Part shown: positions 48,773 to 55,983 of the stretch, one piece after another
How the letters are laid out: every line of letters begins with the position of its first letter
Position numbering within the stretch: position 1 is the first letter of the stretch
Assembly: GCF_019890725.1 (NCBI RefSeq)
Contig: NZ_JAINZZ010000037.1
Span: 1-64,000, forward strand
From: Actinacidiphila acidipaludis
Lineage (GTDB): Bacteria > Actinomycetota > Actinomycetes > Streptomycetales > Streptomycetaceae
DNA: 64,000 nucleotides
Direction: 5' to 3'
The notes under the pieces: model-generated
The model's database searches: none
Seen by the model: only the letters and a program-made list of their open reading frames with translations
What the model was told of the DNA's origin: nothing
Made by a program: the position numbers and the translations under genes

Positions 48773-49570
48773 TCAGGCGGACTCGGACAGCAGCCGGGTC
48801 AGATGCTCCCGGGCAGGGCCGAGCAGACCCGGCAGGTCCGCCGCTGCCTCGTACCAGCGCTTCTCGTACTCCCAGCACAGCCAGCCGTCCCAGTCGGCGC
48901 GGCTGAGCACCTCGACGGTCTCGGCCAGCGGCAGCACACCGGCGCCCAGCGGCAGCGGGGTGGGGTCGGCGGCCGACGCGATGTCCTTGACCTGGACGTA
49001 GCCCAGGTAGGGCGCCAGCGCCGCGTAGGTGACCGACGGCTGCTCGCCCGCCAGCCAGGTGTGCATGACGTCCCAGATGGCCCCGGTGGCCCGGTGACCG
49101 ACCAGACCCAGCACCCGGGCGACGTCCACTCCCGCGCGATGCGAGTCGTGGGTCTCCAGCAGCACCCGCACCCCGAGGCGGTCCGCCGACTCCGCCGCCG
49201 CGGCCAGCCGGCGCGCCGCGAGGGCATCGGCTTCCTCGGCGGGCTGGTCGCCCCCGCCCGGGAATACCCGCACGAACGAGGCCCCGAGGTCGGCTGCCAA
49301 CTGGAGAGCCGCGTCGATCTCCTCCAGTACGGGGCCGTCGTCACCGGGAGCGGCGACCTTGGCGTAGGCCGCGACCGTCAGGACGTCGATCCCGGCCTTG
49401 CCGAACTGCTCCGCGATATGGGCGCGTTCGGCTGCCGGCAGCCCGGTGTGCACCGGGCCTTCGGCGCTCGCACGCAGTTCGACGCCGTGGTAGTCGTTTT
49501 CCGATGCCAGCCGGAGGACCTCGTCGACCGGCATGGTGGGGACCCCGAGGGTGGAGAAGGCGAGTCTCAT
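48773..49570 (-). CDS. Sugar phosphate isomerase/epimerase-like TIM barrel
   Basis: A 265-residue AP endonuclease-2-type TIM barrel. MRLAFSTLGVPTMPVDEVL opens the barrel; metal-binding-type residues occur in NDYHGVELR, LLETHDSHRAG, AIWDVMHTW, VQVKDI and WEYEKRW. The ATG at 49570 is chosen for the canonical N-terminus; no clear ribosome binding site. Substrate unknown. It is a second member of the family in this window, besides 55138-55983. Confidence 0.85.
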   Translation of the reverse strand: MRLAFSTLGVPTMPVDEVLRLASENDYHGVELRASAEGPVHTGLPAAERAHIAEQFGKAGIDVLTVAAYAKVAAPGDDGPVLEEIDAALQLAADLGASFVRVFPGGGDQPAEEADALAARRLAAAAESADRLGVRVLLETHDSHRAGVDVARVLGLVGHRATGAIWDVMHTWLAGEQPSVTYAALAPYLGYVQVKDIASAADPTPLPLGAGVLPLAETVEVLSRADWDGWLCWEYEKRWYEAAADLPGLLGPAREHLTRLLSESA

Positions 49571-49612
49571 TCGGCCGACGCTAGGCACCCCTCCCGGCCG
49601 GGTCAACCGGGA

Positions 49613-51442: not shown

Positions 51443-52528
51443 TCAGGGACGGTTGCTCGGCGGGGCGGTCGAGGCCCGGACCATGAGCTCGGTCGGGATG
51501 GTGGACAGACCGCCCGGCGGCGGGGCCTGCCGGCCCATCACGAGCCGCCCGGCCCGTGCGCCGGCTTCCTGCAGCGGGATGCGGACCGTGGTCAGGGCCG
51601 GCGCGGCGTCGACGCTGAACGGGAGGTCGTCGAAGCCGGCGACCGAGACGTCGCCCGGAATGCTCCGCCCCTGGTCCCGCAGTGCCGCGCACACCCCGAG
51701 CGCCACCGTGTCGTTGGCGGCCACTATCGCTGTCACGCCGGGGTCCCTCCGCAGGAGTTCCAGCGTGGCGTCGTAGCCGGACGCGCGGTCGTAGCCGCCG
51801 TGAACGGTGAGCCGCAGCGCGTTGTCGCCCTCGCCGGTGCCCGGTCCCATGCCGTGTGCCTCCAGCGCGGCCCGATGGCCTTCCAGCCGGTGCCGGGTCG
51901 TGCTGCGCTCCACCGGGCCGGTCACACAGCCGATCCGGCGGTGCCCGAGGGACAGCAGGTGCTCGGTCAGCCGCCGGGCGCCGCCGCGGTTGTCGAAGGC
52001 GACGGTCGTCACCTGACCCGAATCGTCGGGCAGCGTCAGCGGCGGCCGCCCGCACAGCACCACGTGCGTTCCAGAGGTGGCGAGCCGGGCCAGGCGTGCG
52101 GCGACCGCGGCGGTGTGCGTGTCGTCCTCGACCGCCCCGCCCGTCAGTACCACGCCCGCGGCGCGCTGCCGTTCGAGGAGCGTCAGATAGGTGAGTTCGG
52201 CCTCGGGTGAGCCGCCGGTGTTGCACACCACGGCGAGCTTTCCACCGACCGGGCCCGCGCCTCCGGCGCCGATCTCCGCCTGGAGCGCGCTCGCGATGAG
52301 GCCGAAGAAGGGGTCGGCGACGTCGTTGACGAGCACGCCGACCAGGTCGGACGTGGCGGCGGCAAGGGCGCGGGCCTGCCCGTTCACGACGTAGTCGAGT
52401 TCCTCGACCGCGCGCTTGACCCGTTCCCTGGTGTTGCCCGCCACGGGGTAGTTGCCGTTCAGCACACGTGAGACCGTCGCCGAGGACACCCCGGCGCGCG
52501 CGGCGACGTCCGCCAGAGTCACTGCCAT
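51443..52528 (-). CDS. LacI-family repressor of the oxidoreductase-DUF993-epimerase operon
   Basis: 361 residues. The HTH MAVTLADVAARAGVSSATVS and hinge VVNGQARALAAAT are typical LacI; a sugar-binding-like effector domain follows. It is divergent from the three-gene operon, and the shared promoter carries two AAGCGCTT sites. The effector is presumably the sugar or sugar acid catabolised by that operon. Confidence 0.92.
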   Translation of the reverse strand: MAVTLADVAARAGVSSATVSRVLNGNYPVAGNTRERVKRAVEELDYVVNGQARALAAATSDLVGVLVNDVADPFFGLIASALQAEIGAGGAGPVGGKLAVVCNTGGSPEAELTYLTLLERQRAAGVVLTGGAVEDDTHTAAVAARLARLATSGTHVVLCGRPPLTLPDDSGQVTTVAFDNRGGARRLTEHLLSLGHRRIGCVTGPVERSTTRHRLEGHRAALEAHGMGPGTGEGDNALRLTVHGGYDRASGYDATLELLRRDPGVTAIVAANDTVALGVCAALRDQGRSIPGDVSVAGFDDLPFSVDAAPALTTVRIPLQEAGARAGRLVMGRQAPPPGGLSTIPTELMVRASTAPPSNRP

Positions 52529-52685
52529 CCGGATCCGGTCCTCTCCTGCACTGCCGCGCCACTGCGTGCGCGACGGCGGTCGGCGCCCGCCCGCGGACCG
52601 CGCTTGTAGCCGCTCATGCTCTCACCGAGCGGCCCCGAGCGGGAGCGGTCCTGGGGCAGGTGTGGGGAGTGACTCATCAGTAGCC

Positions 52686-52699
52686 AGAAAGCGCTTACT
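52686..52699. promoter_or_regulatory. LacI-type operator 1 (AGAAAGCGCTTACT)
   Basis: The core AAGCGCTT palindrome at 52689-52696 lies in the divergent promoter. The core matches other LacI-family sites. The rest of the 52529-52838 gap shows only the second operator. Confidence 0.75.
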
Positions 52700-52761
52700 C
52701 GCGGTGGGCTATGGATGGCACCTTGCCGCACAGGCCGCCCACGGGCTAGCGTGAAGCGCGC

Positions 52762-52775
52762 AGAAAGCGCTTGCT
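52762..52775. promoter_or_regulatory. LacI-type operator 2 (AGAAAGCGCTTGCT)
   Basis: Shares 13 of 14 bases with operator 1. The cores are 76 bp apart, close to seven helical turns, so looping by a repressor tetramer or dimer pair is possible. Confidence 0.75.
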
Positions 52776-52838
52776 ACACCCTCTACTGCACCCCTGGCCA
52801 TGTCGCCTTCCCGCGACCGTCTGTCGAGGAGACTCCCC

Positions 52839-53990
52839 GTGACACGCAGAGCAGTGCGGATCGCCATGAACGGCGTCACCGGGCGGATGGGATATCGGCA
52901 GCACCTGGTGAGGTCGCTGCTCGAACTGCGGAGCCAGGGCGGCCTCGACCTCGGGAACGGCACCACCCTGTGGCCGGAACCGGTGCTCGTCGGACGGCGC
53001 GACCACGCCCTGCGTGCGATGGCGGAACAGCACGGGGTCGAGCGCTGGAGCACCGACCTCGACGCCGTGCTCGCCGACCCGTCGATCGAGATCTACTTCG
53101 ACGCCCAGGTCACCTCCGCGCGTGAGGAGGCGGTGAAGAAGGCCATCGCAGCCGGCAAGCACATCTACTGCGAGAAGCCCACCGGCACCACCCTGGCCGG
53201 TGCCCTGGAGCTCGCGCGGCTCGCCGACGCGGCCGGTGTCAAGCACGGCGTGGTCCAGGACAAGCTCTTCCTGCCCGGGCTGCTGAAACTGCGACGGCTG
53301 GTGGAGGGCGGCTTCTTCGGCCGGATCCTGTCGGTGCGCGGCGAGTTCGGCTACTGGGTCTTCGAAGGCGACTGGCAGAGCGCCCAGCGGCCGTCGTGGA
53401 ACTACCGCGCCGAGGACGGCGGCGGCATCGTCGTGGACATGTTCCCGCACTGGGAATACGTGCTCCATGAGCTGTTCGGCCGCGTGCGCACCGTGCAGGC
53501 GGTCACCGCCACGCACATCCCGCAGCGCTGGGACGAGCAGGGCAAGCCGTACGACGCGACCGCCGACGACGCCGCCTACGGCATCTTCGAGTTGGACGGT
53601 GGGGTGATCGCACAGATCAACTCCTCCTGGGCCGTGCGCGTCAACCGTGACGAACTCGTGGAGTTCCAGGTCGACGGCACCCACGGCTCGGCCGTCGCCG
53701 GCCTGCGCAACTGCCGCGTCCAGCACCGCTCGTCCACACCGAAGCCGGTGTGGAACCCCGACCTGCCGGCCACCGAGGCCTTCCGCGACCAGTGGCAGGA
53801 GGTGCCGGACAACGGCGAGTTCGACAACGGCTTCAAGGCCCAGTGGGAGCTGTTCCTGCGCCATGTCGTGCTCGACGAACCCTGGCGCTGGGACATGACC
53901 GCGGGCGCCCGCGGGGTGCAGCTCGCCGAACTCGGCCTGAGATCCGCGGCCGAGGGCCGCCGATTCGACGTCCCGGAGCTGGCGCTGTGA
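52839..53990 (+). CDS. Gfo/Idh/MocA-family oxidoreductase
   Basis: 383 residues from a GTG after GAGGAGAC. The dinucleotide-binding N-terminus is VRIAMNGVTGRMGYRQHL, diverged from the usual GxGxxG. The catalytic Lys of family motif EKP is present (HIYCEKPTGTTLAGALE). NAD(P)-dependent oxidation of a sugar, inositol or sugar-derived alcohol is likely. It is the first gene of the operon and overlaps the next by 4 nt (GTGA). Confidence 0.9.
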   Translation: MTRRAVRIAMNGVTGRMGYRQHLVRSLLELRSQGGLDLGNGTTLWPEPVLVGRRDHALRAMAEQHGVERWSTDLDAVLADPSIEIYFDAQVTSAREEAVKKAIAAGKHIYCEKPTGTTLAGALELARLADAAGVKHGVVQDKLFLPGLLKLRRLVEGGFFGRILSVRGEFGYWVFEGDWQSAQRPSWNYRAEDGGGIVVDMFPHWEYVLHELFGRVRTVQAVTATHIPQRWDEQGKPYDATADDAAYGIFELDGGVIAQINSSWAVRVNRDELVEFQVDGTHGSAVAGLRNCRVQHRSSTPKPVWNPDLPATEAFRDQWQEVPDNGEFDNGFKAQWELFLRHVVLDEPWRWDMTAGARGVQLAELGLRSAAEGRRFDVPELAL

Positions 53991-55141
53991 GCATCCTGCT
54001 GCCCGGTGAGTCCGGCGAGCCCCGCACCTATGTGCCGAGGACCGAACCCGTCACCTGTGCGACGGAACTGCCGCTGCGCAGCCGCGTGGTGTACTCCGCG
54101 GCGCATGTCGTGGCCGACCCGTTGCGGACAGCCGCGGACGCGCCCGCGGCGGTGGACTGGGACGCCACCCTCGCCTTCCGGCGGCACCTGTGGGCGCACG
54201 GACTGGGCGTCGCCGAGGCGATGGACACCGCGCAACGCGGGATGGGCCTGGACTGGGCGGGCGCGGCCGAGCTGATCCGGCGGTCCTCCGCCGAGGCCCG
54301 TGCCGTGGGTGGGCGCATCGCCTGCGGTGTCGGCACCGACCAGCTCACGGCCCCGGCAGCCACCCTCGCCGAGGTCGGCGCCGCCTATGAGGAGCAACTG
54401 GCCGTGGTGGAGGAGGCCGGGTCGCAGGCCGTGCTGATGGCTTCCCGGGCGCTGGTGGCCGTGGCCAAGGGCCCGGACGACTACCTGGAGGTCTACGGGG
54501 GTCTGCTGCGGCAGGCCGCGGAGCCGGTGATCCTGCACTGGCTCGGTCCGATGTTCGACCCCGCGCTCGCCGGTTACTGGGGCGGCGACGACCTGGACGC
54601 GGCGACCGAGACACTCCTCGAGCTCATCGCCGCCCACCCGGACAAGGTCGACGGTGTGAAGATCTCCCTGCTGGACGCCGGACGGGAGGTGGGACTGCGG
54701 CGGCGTCTGCCGGAAGGGGTGCGCTGTTACACCGGCGACGACTTCCACTACCCCGAGCTCGTCGAGGGTGACGAGCACGGATTCAGTCACGCCCTCCTCG
54801 GCATCTTCGACCCGCTCGCACCGGTCGCGGCCGCCGCCGTCAGCACCCTCGACACCGGCGACAGCGCGGGCTTCCGCGCCCTCCTCGACCCCACCGTGGA
54901 ACTGTCCCGGCACCTGTTCGGCGCGCCCACCCGCTTCTACAAGACCGGTGTGGTGCTGCTCGCCTGGCTGGCCGGACACCAGGACCACTTCGCCATGGTG
55001 GGCGGTCTGCAGTCCGCGCGTTCCCTGCCGCACCTGGCGCGCGCCTACGAACTGGCCGACCGTCTGGGCCTGTTCCCCGATCCCGCGCTCGCCGAGTCCC
55101 GGATGCGCGGCCTGCTCGCGGTGTACGGGGTGGACGCGTGA
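53987..55141 (+). CDS. DUF993 / dihydrodipicolinate-synthase-like protein
   Basis: 384 residues. Resembles the DUF993 family of DapA/aldolase-type TIM barrels (SRALVAVAKGPDDYLEVYGGLLRQAAEPVILHWLG, DKVDGVKISLLDA with a Lys at the Schiff-base-type position). Expected chemistry is aldol cleavage or dehydration of a 2-keto acid, but the family has no established reaction known to me. Overlaps both neighbours by GTGA, so the three proteins are made together. Confidence 0.85.
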   Translation: MSILLPGESGEPRTYVPRTEPVTCATELPLRSRVVYSAAHVVADPLRTAADAPAAVDWDATLAFRRHLWAHGLGVAEAMDTAQRGMGLDWAGAAELIRRSSAEARAVGGRIACGVGTDQLTAPAATLAEVGAAYEEQLAVVEEAGSQAVLMASRALVAVAKGPDDYLEVYGGLLRQAAEPVILHWLGPMFDPALAGYWGGDDLDAATETLLELIAAHPDKVDGVKISLLDAGREVGLRRRLPEGVRCYTGDDFHYPELVEGDEHGFSHALLGIFDPLAPVAAAAVSTLDTGDSAGFRALLDPTVELSRHLFGAPTRFYKTGVVLLAWLAGHQDHFAMVGGLQSARSLPHLARAYELADRLGLFPDPALAESRMRGLLAVYGVDA

Positions 55142-55983
55142 GCGCCCCGGCCGGCGGGGATTTGGACCGCCTCAGCCTCAACCAGGAGACCCTCAAGCAG
55201 TGGTCGCTGCCCGACCTCGTCGACGGGTGCGCCGCCGCGGGCGTCACCCGGGTCGGCCTGTGGCGGGCGCCCGTCCAGGAGTACGGCGTCGAGCGGGCCG
55301 CACGCCTCATGCGCGACAGCGGACTGACGGTCACGTCCCTGTGCCGCGGCGGGTTCTTCACCGCGTCCGAGCCCAAGGCGCGGGCGGCGGCCCTGGACGA
55401 CAACCGTGCGGCTGTCGACGAGGCCGCGGCGCTGGGCACCGGCACCCTGGTGCTGGTCTCCGGCGGCCTGCCCGAAGGCGACCGTGACATCGCGGCGGCG
55501 CGGCAGCGGGTCGCCGACGCCATCGCCGAACTGGCTCCCTACGCGGCCGGGCGCGGCGTGCGCCTCGCGATCGAGCCACTGCACCCGATGTACGCGTCGG
55601 ACCGCTGCGTGGTCTCCACCCTCGACCAGGCCCTCGACATCGCCGAACTGTTCCCCGCCGGCCAGGTCGGCGTCGTGGTCGACACCTACCACCTGTGGTG
55701 GGACGACCGGGCGCCCAAGGCGATCGCCAGGGCCGGGGCGGGCGGCAGGATCGCCTGCTTCCAGGTCGCCGACTGGGTGACGCCGCTGCCCGAAGGCGTG
55801 CTGCTGGGACGCGGACAGCTCGGCGACGGATGCGTCGACCTGCGCGGATTCCGTGAGCTGGTCGACGGCGCCGGCTACGCGGGCGACATCGAGGTCGAGA
55901 TCTTCAGTCCCGCGCTTTGGGCCAGGAACGGCCGCGAGGTCCTGGCCGAGGTCGTCGACCGCTACCGGCGGCACGTGCTCTGA
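55138..55983 (+). CDS. Sugar phosphate isomerase/epimerase-like TIM barrel
   Basis: 281 residues from GTG. Barrel strands with metal-ligand residues: RLAIEPLHPMYASDR, VGVVVDTYHLWWDD, ACFQVADW and IEVEIFSP. Similar to hydroxypyruvate isomerase/2-keto-myo-inositol dehydratase-like proteins. Third gene of the coupled operon; a product of the oxidoreductase is the natural substrate. Confidence 0.9.
   Translation: MSAPAGGDLDRLSLNQETLKQWSLPDLVDGCAAAGVTRVGLWRAPVQEYGVERAARLMRDSGLTVTSLCRGGFFTASEPKARAAALDDNRAAVDEAAALGTGTLVLVSGGLPEGDRDIAAARQRVADAIAELAPYAAGRGVRLAIEPLHPMYASDRCVVSTLDQALDIAELFPAGQVGVVVDTYHLWWDDRAPKAIARAGAGGRIACFQVADWVTPLPEGVLLGRGQLGDGCVDLRGFRELVDGAGYAGDIEVEIFSPALWARNGREVLAEVVDRYRRHVL

Follow-up and report, generated by a model that had tools for sequence, protein, structure and literature searches.

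A LacI-linked Gfo/Idh, DUF993 and PF01261 operon of Actinacidiphila acidipaludis as a candidate sugar or polyol breakdown pathway

The window analysed here, a stretch of 64,000 nucleotides from Actinacidiphila acidipaludis, carries a three-gene set that we read, with a probability of about 0.5, as a LacI-repressed operon for breaking down a small sugar or polyol through oxidation, carbonyl shift and retro-aldol cleavage towards a glycerate-level fragment. The operon is the Streptomycetaceae form of a widespread, poorly characterised gene set, and its middle protein, DUF993, looks like an unusual aldolase from a family that has apparently had no enzymatic test. The reading is built on gene order and overlaps, an operator past a promoter-like pattern, enzyme families and conserved residues, all taken from the sequence. 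Feature coordinates are listed in Table 1.

Table 1. Features of the operon and its control region, in window coordinates
Feature	Position	Strand	Evidence
LacI-family repressor	51443..52528	-	Pfam LacI PF00356 5e-17 and Peripla_BP_3; divergent from operon
Distal operator AGAAAGCGCTTACT	52686..52699	+	Site search
Putative promoter	52723..52752	+	-35 TTGCCG 52723-52728, 18-bp spacer, -10 TAGCGT 52747-52752
Proximal operator AGAAAGCGCTTGCT	52762..52775	+	10-23 bases past -10 box
Gfo/Idh/MocA oxidoreductase, sugar dehydrogenase type	52839..53990	+	GFO_IDH_MocA_C3 PF22725 3e-24
DUF993, DHDPS-like barrel	53987..55141	+	PF06187 6e-180
TIM-barrel isomerase/epimerase	55138..55983	+	AP_endonuc_2 PF01261 3e-41

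Operon structure and control region

ORF coordinates and Pfam matches bear out the initial annotation's description of three genes divergent from lacI and joined by GTGA overlaps, at both the Gfo/Idh-DUF993 and the DUF993-TIM barrel junctions. The Gfo/Idh start was placed at a GTG behind an AGGAGA-like site, with an in-frame ATG at 52800 as the alternative. On one flank, Pfam assigned the neighbouring genes to a further PF01261 protein, a TerF-type vWA protein and a fusion of MarR with an acetyltransferase; on the opposite flank, a family scan gave a helicase of RecD2 type and a citrate synthase.

The two operators AGAAAGCGCTTACT and AGAAAGCGCTTGCT are, as previously claimed, identical at 13 of 14 positions and 76 bp apart, and they are the sole sites in the whole 8.48 Mb genome that match AGAAAGCGCTTRCT with at most one mismatch (reversed control, one site). 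With 72 genomic occurrences against 99 for its reversed control, the pattern AAGCGCTT shows no overall enrichment; two occurrences within the 310-bp intergenic stretch have a P of about 3e-6 (Poisson, from the genome-wide density). Its distance from the -10 box places the proximal operator over or just past the expected transcription start.

Orthologous promoters were compared in 101 rows whose LacI is at least 60% identical; they comprise 96 distinct loci, the window counted, and 5 duplicates. The operator core stands upstream of Gfo in all 101, in support of the initial annotation, so that a palindromic predicted operator at the promoter is conserved alongside the repressor. A promoter-like pattern, picked post hoc (TTGN, 16-22 bases, TARSNT, at most 50 bases 5' of the proximal core), was present in 94/101 rows and in 1/101 control stretches. 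Two operator cores were found in 20 of 119 rows, and 18 of those 20 belong to the window's genus or its named near relatives. Judged from these rows, the second operator is a lineage-specific trait, and the proposed 'dual-operator switch' does not extend to the gene set in general. The repressor itself reached no NCBIfam model above its cut-off.

A transporter under the same operator elsewhere in the genome was considered and dropped, no third site being present at up to one mismatch. Further exact or near sites in relatives were viewed in 16 regions with ORFs judged by eye; several adjoin long secreted-looking proteins, and no shared transporter emerged. Similar sites are probably used by other LacI proteins.

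Properties of the encoded enzymes

DUF993 matches PF06187 over its full length (598.7 bits, positions 2-382 of 382, gathering score 24). K225 and H184, each invariant in 22/22 DUF993 rows, pair in the hhalign alignment (E 1.7e-4, modest probability of 49%) with the Schiff-base lysine and the catalytic tyrosine of DHDPS, the latter being Y133 of E. coli DapA. These pairings point to a DHDPS fold with K225 as predicted Schiff-base lysine and an invariant histidine for the catalytic tyrosine, and at the sequence level they uphold the lysine pocket proposed earlier. The structure model (pLDDT 65.8) has PDB 4dnh as its best match, followed by DHDPS-type structures (VIA Z about 18-19).

DUF993 thus resembles the DHDPS / N-acetylneuraminate lyase (NAL) superfamily in barrel fold and predicted lysine, but differs from it in the histidine, in a length greater by about 90 residues and in an identity of 11-17% over the listed structure alignments. 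A further apparent difference concerns G-T/S-T-G-E, the carboxylate-binding motif of the DHDPS/NAL pyruvate-dependent class I aldolases: when the sequences are aligned by hand without gaps, outside the stretch covered by hhalign, GTTGE reads D-T-A-Q-R in DUF993. Because the catalytic tyrosine is changed and GTTGE seemingly so, an assay restricted to 2-keto-3-deoxy acids may miss the substrate.

At least 558 relatives were found encoded in one scan, commonly annotated as 'dihydrodipicolinate synthase family protein'. The family has had a solved structure since 2012, yet a full-text search for the name 'DUF993' found no paper in the collection searched; those found through PF06187 and the PDB codes concern other subjects by title and abstract. 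Combined annotation words gave nothing on this operon among the papers listed, and PMC11778176, retrieved in this way, concerns YagE. With a conserved trio, predicted residues and an operator to work from, DUF993 is open to a well-defined enzymatic test, and its outcome could name the family.

The Gfo/Idh protein has the NAD-binding and C-terminal domains of its family. EKP and D..H are the catalytic residues of Gfo/Idh/MocA oxidoreductases, and K113 (of EKP), D200 and H204 are unchanged in 10/10 sequences. Its closest PDB match is 3oqb (517 bits), an entry named only 'Oxidoreductase'. Among NCBIfam models the top match is the levoglucosan dehydrogenase LgdA (NF052479), at 65.3 bits far under the cut-off of 650, and the inositol 2-dehydrogenase IolG (TIGR04380) scores 55 bits against a cut-off of 355; neither the levoglucosan nor the inositol model of NCBIfam is reached, which supports the initial annotation.

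In the PF01261 protein E146, D182 and E254 are invariant in 12/12 sequences and the third ligand position is His or Gln, giving a four-ligand metal site (Glu, Asp, His/Gln, Glu) that resembles IolI; metal-ligand roles in PF01261 isomerases and epimerases are as in IolI. Inositol or cyclitol catabolism by IolG/IolE/IolI-like enzymes would draw on the same superfamilies, and this protein distantly matches IolI in the PDB, but the low IolG score and the annotation tables for relatives on plasmids, in which no gene named as an iol enzyme was seen, make that route very improbable.

Conservation and genomic neighbourhood

Gfo/Idh, DUF993 and PF01261 occur in this order at 112 of 114 distinct actinobacterial loci, gene calls at unannotated loci being simple GC-frame calls with rough start positions. 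The co-occurrence expected from the initial annotation therefore holds within actinobacteria. Among Pseudomonadota plasmid regions with DUF993, 4/17 contain this Gfo type, whose place is often taken by an SDR; many of the 13 regions without it carry SDR and acyl-CoA enzymes. Three haloarchaeal regions hold Gfo homologues (57-60%) with no DUF993 or epimerase match, and the Gfo gene of one haloarchaeon directly follows an ABC transporter and a DUF4147 gene (a glycerate-kinase type). DUF993 alone, without its trio partners, is also found beside polyketide synthase genes.

No transporter or kinase was detected by Pfam among the scanned neighbour genes on either side of the operon, as had been noted; the description of this as unusual did not stand, since the absence of an adjacent transporter is the normal state in Streptomycetaceae. 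A nearby glycerate kinase was found in 0/80 named Streptomycetaceae loci (family panel). Ribose-type (CUT2) transporter parts are present in the flanks of 25 (ATPase) to 29 (permease) of the 80 Streptomycetaceae loci; they were set aside as an uptake system because by eye they probably reflect synteny with a convergent ribose operon, whose neighbours in L088 and L180 resemble ribokinase and pyranase. L180 also has three genes that separate lacI from Gfo, and these were likewise dropped as a transporter, Pfam assigning them to an additional Gfo/Idh, DUF6807 and a weak cupin.

The search for an attached transporter in related genomes was more productive outside Streptomycetaceae, with an ABC transporter near DUF993 in 10 of 15 other actinobacterial loci. 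Glycerate kinase is near DUF993 in 6 of these 15 and in 10/20 plasmid regions; the 8.48 Mb genome itself has one PF02595 glycerate kinase, on another contig, and none of PF13660 type. Transporter types near the set are mixed (CUT1, CUT2, NMT1-type, branched-chain-amino-acid type, tripartite tricarboxylate, TRAP and MFS), so substrates may differ among loci.

Proposed pathway

For sugar or polyol breakdown, LacI on the proximal operator would block transcription until the sugar or a pathway intermediate binds the repressor, and the distal operator, where present, could strengthen repression or act on lacI itself. Gfo/Idh would oxidise one sugar hydroxyl with NAD(P), and the PF01261 enzyme would shift or epimerise the resulting carbonyl via an enediol at its metal site. 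K225 of DUF993 would then form a Schiff base with the ketone and cleave a C-C bond, with H184 replacing the usual tyrosine; retro-aldol cleavage is the favoured reaction, and dehydration a less favoured variant. One product at the glycerate or hydroxypyruvate level would enter glycolysis via a glycerate kinase, adjacent in many relatives and encoded on another contig here, and uptake in Streptomycetaceae would rely on a transporter encoded elsewhere. In favour of this breakdown reading are the fixed gene order, the unique and conserved operator, the K225 and H184 pairings, the structure matches of DUF993, the invariant Gfo and metal-site residues, the glycerate kinases and ABC transporters near DUF993 outside Streptomycetaceae, the pAO1 gene row and the haloarchaeal gene group with DUF4147. 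Counting against it are the pLDDT of the DUF993 model, the modest hhalign probability, the predicted nature of the chemistry, the 0/80 count for glycerate kinase in Streptomycetaceae, the pAO1 DUF993, which stands without an epimerase, the 13/17 plasmid regions without this Gfo type, the DUF993 genes that stand alone by polyketide synthase genes, the haloarchaeal Gfo homologues that lack both partners, and the mixture of transporter types.

A broader proposal is tentative, with the odds somewhat against it: DUF993 may represent a new Schiff-base lyase branch that cleaves a keto-sugar and not a 2-keto-3-deoxy acid, with His for Tyr. It would be central to a so far uncharacterised route for sugars or polyols that Actinomycetota and Pseudomonadota have in common, with Gfo/Idh or an SDR as first enzyme, and certain polyketide clusters would have recruited it for making or trimming one of their building blocks.

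Relation to known systems

In the levoglucosan pathway LgdA-LgdB1-LgdB2-LgdC, a Gfo/Idh oxidation is followed by a PF01261 enzyme (PMC7676230), and the LgdA/LgdB pattern recurs in PMC10066097. Glycoside or anhydrosugar catabolism of this style, in which a 3-keto sugar would undergo beta-elimination and the PF01261 protein would act as eliminase or hydratase, gains from the identity of the top NCBIfam match and from the additional genes of the L180 operon. The score so far under the LgdA cut-off speaks against it, as does the main text of PMC7676230, which names no DHDPS-type enzyme and does not contain 'dihydrodipicolinate', and we consider it improbable.

Sinorhizobium meliloti provides solved homologues of two of the proteins, SMc04132 for DUF993 (4dnh, 2012) and SMc04130 for PF01261 (3ju2). 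Together with SMc04133 they are listed in PMC12542648 as uncharacterised or putative, their adjacency being judged from locus tags; according to Table 2 of that paper, SMc04132, SMc04133 (putative oxidoreductase) and the solute-binding SMc04135 fall in the phbC phaR mutant versus the phbC mutant in TY medium. A literature search with the pSymA tags SMa1400-1415 found nothing.

A close counterpart is the pAO1 region of Paenarthrobacter nicotinovorans, where CUT2-type transporter, GMC, AldH, Gfo, DUF993 and glycerate kinase genes stand in a row. Gfo/Idh (66.8% identity) and DUF993 (52.9%) are adjacent in both. pAO1 has a GntR regulator, a CUT2-type ABC transporter, a GMC oxidoreductase, an aldehyde dehydrogenase and a glycerate kinase, whereas the window has LacI and the epimerase and, among the scanned neighbours, none of the transporter, GMC, AldH or glycerate kinase genes; a homology search with the window's epimerase found no match in the pAO1 region. 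Mihasan et al. 2013 (Res. Microbiol. 164:22-30) reportedly described a xylose pathway of pAO1, with its Gfo/Idh said to be a sugar dehydrogenase preferring xylose, in an operon that we take to be this Gfo and DUF993 carbohydrate operon.

D-xylose or a similar aldose is, by this analogy, the sole substrate candidate with outside support. An oxidative D-xylose route of Weimberg/Dahms-like type, in which Gfo/Idh would be a xylose 1-dehydrogenase and DUF993 would act on a xylonate-derived 2-keto-3-deoxy acid, fits the two pAO1 identities, the published pathway study and the KdgD-type dehydratase that adjoins the trio in L093 and L098. It is nevertheless rather unlikely: a full XylA is encoded in the genome (730 bits against a cut-off of 447), which would make the route redundant, the window operon has no xylonate dehydratase or aldehyde dehydrogenase by Pfam, and the D-T-A-Q-R reading and the missing epimerase match in pAO1 also speak against it. 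The initial annotation's term 'undescribed' nonetheless has to be given up for the gene set as a whole, since the pAO1 operon encodes a dehydrogenase of 67% identity, reportedly xylose-preferring, together with a DUF993 protein of 53% identity.

Organisation and distribution of the operon

The arrangement read from the sequence in the initial annotation, three overlapping genes divergent from a LacI gene with two operators, was confirmed by gene coordinates, Pfam matches, the sites themselves and a GTGA overlap at both junctions (Gfo/Idh-DUF993 and DUF993-PF01261). None of the NCBIfam models searched against the LacI, Gfo/Idh, DUF993 and PF01261 proteins scored over its cut-off. Among the matches listed, the closest named relative of DUF993 was that of Actinacidiphila rubida (91% identity). 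Many Streptomycetaceae loci have a homologue of the second PF01261 protein to the lacI side of the operon.

Coordinates of the operon genes, putative operators and a nearby protein in the window
Feature	Position	Strand	Basis or remark
Second PF01261 protein	48773-49606	minus	Pfam
LacI	51443-52528	minus	Pfam family match
Putative distal operator AGAAAGCGCTTACT	starts 52686		differs from proximal at 1/14 bases
Putative proximal operator AGAAAGCGCTTGCT	starts 52762		76 bp from distal
Gfo/Idh	52839-53990	plus	Pfam family match
DUF993	53987-55141	plus	Pfam family match
PF01261 TIM barrel	55138-55983	plus	Pfam family match

Within the genus, 34 of 35 genomes had DUF993, the single miss being a 71%-complete genome. 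In a phylum-wide sample of 396 genomes from 237 genera, it was detected in 29 genomes from 15 genera; one of these 29 (G328) had a 23-bit match only, and its locus search (L105) gave no confirmation. The three families do co-occur: in 112 of 114 distinct actinobacterial DUF993 loci, DUF993 is flanked on the same strand by Gfo immediately upstream and PF01261 immediately downstream. This count is weighted to Streptomycetaceae, since the 80 named loci, among the matches listed, are all close relatives (DUF993 74–91%); the complete trio was also present in all 15 actinobacterial loci outside the family (L090-L104). The two exceptions were L143, where Gfo lies farther off, and L078, a genome's second copy beside ketosynthase genes. 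A near, divergent LacI-like gene of any identity accompanied 101 of the 114 loci; the other 13 comprised nine outside Streptomycetaceae, two at contig ends (L148 and L166), L184 and L078.

Matches were in pieces for DUF993 in L084 (G020) and for Gfo and DUF993 in L090 (G042), reflecting either decay or sequencing error. Pfam identified a second Gfo/Idh, a DUF6807 and a weak cupin between lacI and the trio in Actinacidiphila oryziradicis (L180:5180-8282); L073 has homologues of all three, and L071 one of DUF6807. In some actinobacteria (L093:516-1523, L098:11654-13511 and L100) the trio adjoins a 5-dehydro-4-deoxyglucarate dehydratase-type protein, which scored over a subfamily cut-off in L093 and L098, and an NAD-dependent epimerase-type SDR, neighbours hinting at uronate or aldarate handling.

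Operators and promoter

Across the whole 8.48 Mb genome, the two operators were the only sites at one mismatch or fewer (reversed control: 1). The 420 bp before Gfo were surveyed in 119 rows (118 loci and the window), including five loci that duplicate others and leaving out L078 and L105, which have no Gfo. Each of the 101 rows whose LacI was 60% or more identical had at least one operator core, AAGCGCTT, before Gfo, a count separate from the LacI-like total of 101/114; the operator core does recur in orthologous promoters. The core was missing in 12 of the 119 rows, 11 outside Streptomycetaceae and one (L166) cut by a contig end. Two cores were found in 20 of the 119 rows (67–76 bp apart in 19, 24 bp in one) and in 12 of 19 same-genus loci (L066-L085 without L078); the proposed dual-operator switch is thus not general. 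A promoter-like pattern (TTGN, 16–22 bases, TARSNT), selected only after in-register reading of these sequences, lay at most 50 bases before the proximal core in 94 of 101 rows, and in 1 of 101 control stretches 110–160 bases upstream. Core conservation, the preceding promoter-like pattern and the two-core counts together point to the proximal site as the conserved switch, predicted to sit where it would block initiation, and to the distal operator as mainly an addition of this lineage.

Operator-like sites with the AAGCGCTT core also precede long proteins, secreted-looking by eye, in same-genus genomes (L241-L246); other LacI regulators may share operator DNA specificity with this one.

Transporter and glycerate kinase genes

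Having no transporter or kinase nearby had been considered unusual; it is the rule in Streptomycetaceae, where the panel, among the matches listed, placed a glycerate kinase near the operon in 0/80 named loci and a full CUT1 set in 1/80. The window genome has one PF02595 gene, on another contig, and no PF13660-type gene in its 8.48 Mb.

The search for a transporter in relatives was productive: an ABC transporter lay inside the fetched stretch (20 kb; 6.7 kb for L099) in 10 of the 15 loci L090-L104. It was of NMT1 type in L091, L095 and L101, CUT1 type in L092, L097, L098, L100, L102 and L103, and branched-chain-amino-acid type in L104, as typed by Pfam (L091, L101, L102, L104) or the tblastn panel (others). 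Glycerate kinase was found by the panel in 6 of these 15 loci and 10 of 20 plasmid regions, and also on pAO1. These counts indicate that absence is normal in the family, and the wider set of relatives points to uptake and a glycerate-level product.

Active-site residues and proposed reactions

The window's DUF993 matches PDB 4dnh (S. meliloti SMc04132) over nearly its whole length (440 bits). With a middling AlphaFold model (pLDDT 65.8; best stretch about residues 91-250), Foldseek ranked 4dnh top and DHDPS structures next (E about 1e-9), suggesting a related fold; the VIA Z was 27.7 for 4dnh (rmsd 5.0, 330 aligned) and 17.8–19.0 for the 49 further rows listed beside it. Profile alignment to six DHDPS-family proteins covered query residues 136-323 (E 1.7e-4, probability 49%) and placed K225 at the position of the Schiff-base lysine and H184 at that of the tyrosine; DUF993 thus keeps the lysine but has a histidine where DHDPS has tyrosine. 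Only a hand alignment places D-T-A-Q-R opposite the GTTGE stretch. D80, T81, R84, H184, K225, D251 and K319 were invariant in 22 DUF993 proteins (49–91% identical to the window's, two polyketide-cluster copies included). No assay of DUF993 was found in the literature searched.

K113 (EKP motif), D200 and H204 of Gfo/Idh were invariant (10/10), as were the metal-site Glu, Asp and Glu of the PF01261 protein (12/12), with His or Gln as third ligand; these metal-site residues are in register with IolI. The catalytic roles given to the residues cited in the three proteins follow general background on these enzyme families.

The best-supported reading is that the substrate would be oxidised, its carbonyl then shifted and a C-C bond finally cleaved through a Schiff base, under local LacI control. 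We infer the substrate, step order and products from the observed families and residues.

Settings outside Actinomycetota and beside polyketide genes

The association of the trio is looser outside Actinomycetota. Among 20 annotated plasmid regions, 17 of them from Pseudomonadota, Gfo of this type was present in 5, a PF01261 gene in 16 and all three genes in 4. An SDR annotated '3-ketoacyl-ACP reductase' directly preceded DUF993 in 11, in most cases accompanied by genes for acyl-CoA dehydrogenase, CoA-transferase, enoyl-CoA hydratase, GMC oxidoreductase or ETF. Gfo at 57–60% identity was present in three haloarchaeal plasmid regions (19 kb) with no DUF993 or epimerase match; one of these has ABC transporter and DUF4147 genes immediately upstream of Gfo.

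The setting of DUF993 differs between two S. meliloti records, Ak57 (L190, named pSymB) and R28 pSymA (L031); the L190 copy has LacI and CoA-transferase genes in divergent orientation to it, with no epimerase match there. DUF993 copies without Gfo or epimerase, 53–57% identical to the window's, lie near polyketide genes in same-genus G026 (L078:9154-10386, a ketosynthase fragment beside it) and on a plasmid of Streptomyces sp. NBC_00557 (L194:8998-10185, where it immediately precedes an annotated type I PKS and has AMP-binding and ACP S-malonyltransferase genes near). A building-block or tailoring aldolase is a possible role for these copies.

Comparison with S. meliloti and pAO1

In a comparison of S. 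meliloti phbC phaR and phbC mutants in TY medium, Table 2 of PMC12542648 gives lower levels in phbC phaR than in phbC, with log2 values of -1.69 for SMc04132, -3.65 for SMc04133 and -1.23 for the solute-binding SMc04135, and lists all three as not detected in low-phosphate medium.

On Paenarthrobacter nicotinovorans pAO1, a row of GntR, four-gene ABC transporter, small ORF, GMC and AldH (annotated for D-xylose catabolism) continues with Gfo/Idh, DUF993 and glycerate kinase. ORF40 is reportedly a sugar dehydrogenase with a preference for D-xylose, and ORF39 is reported as an aldehyde dehydrogenase; counting from GntR as ORF32, we take ORF40 to be the Gfo related to the window's. Xylose need not be the substrate of the operon, since the window genome has a complete xylose isomerase. 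The initial annotation's reading as a candidate undescribed catabolic pathway is thus supported in part: the operon is real and conserved and is probably catabolic, but it is not wholly undescribed, given its pAO1 homologues, which share 66.8% (Gfo) and 52.9% (DUF993) identity with the window's proteins.
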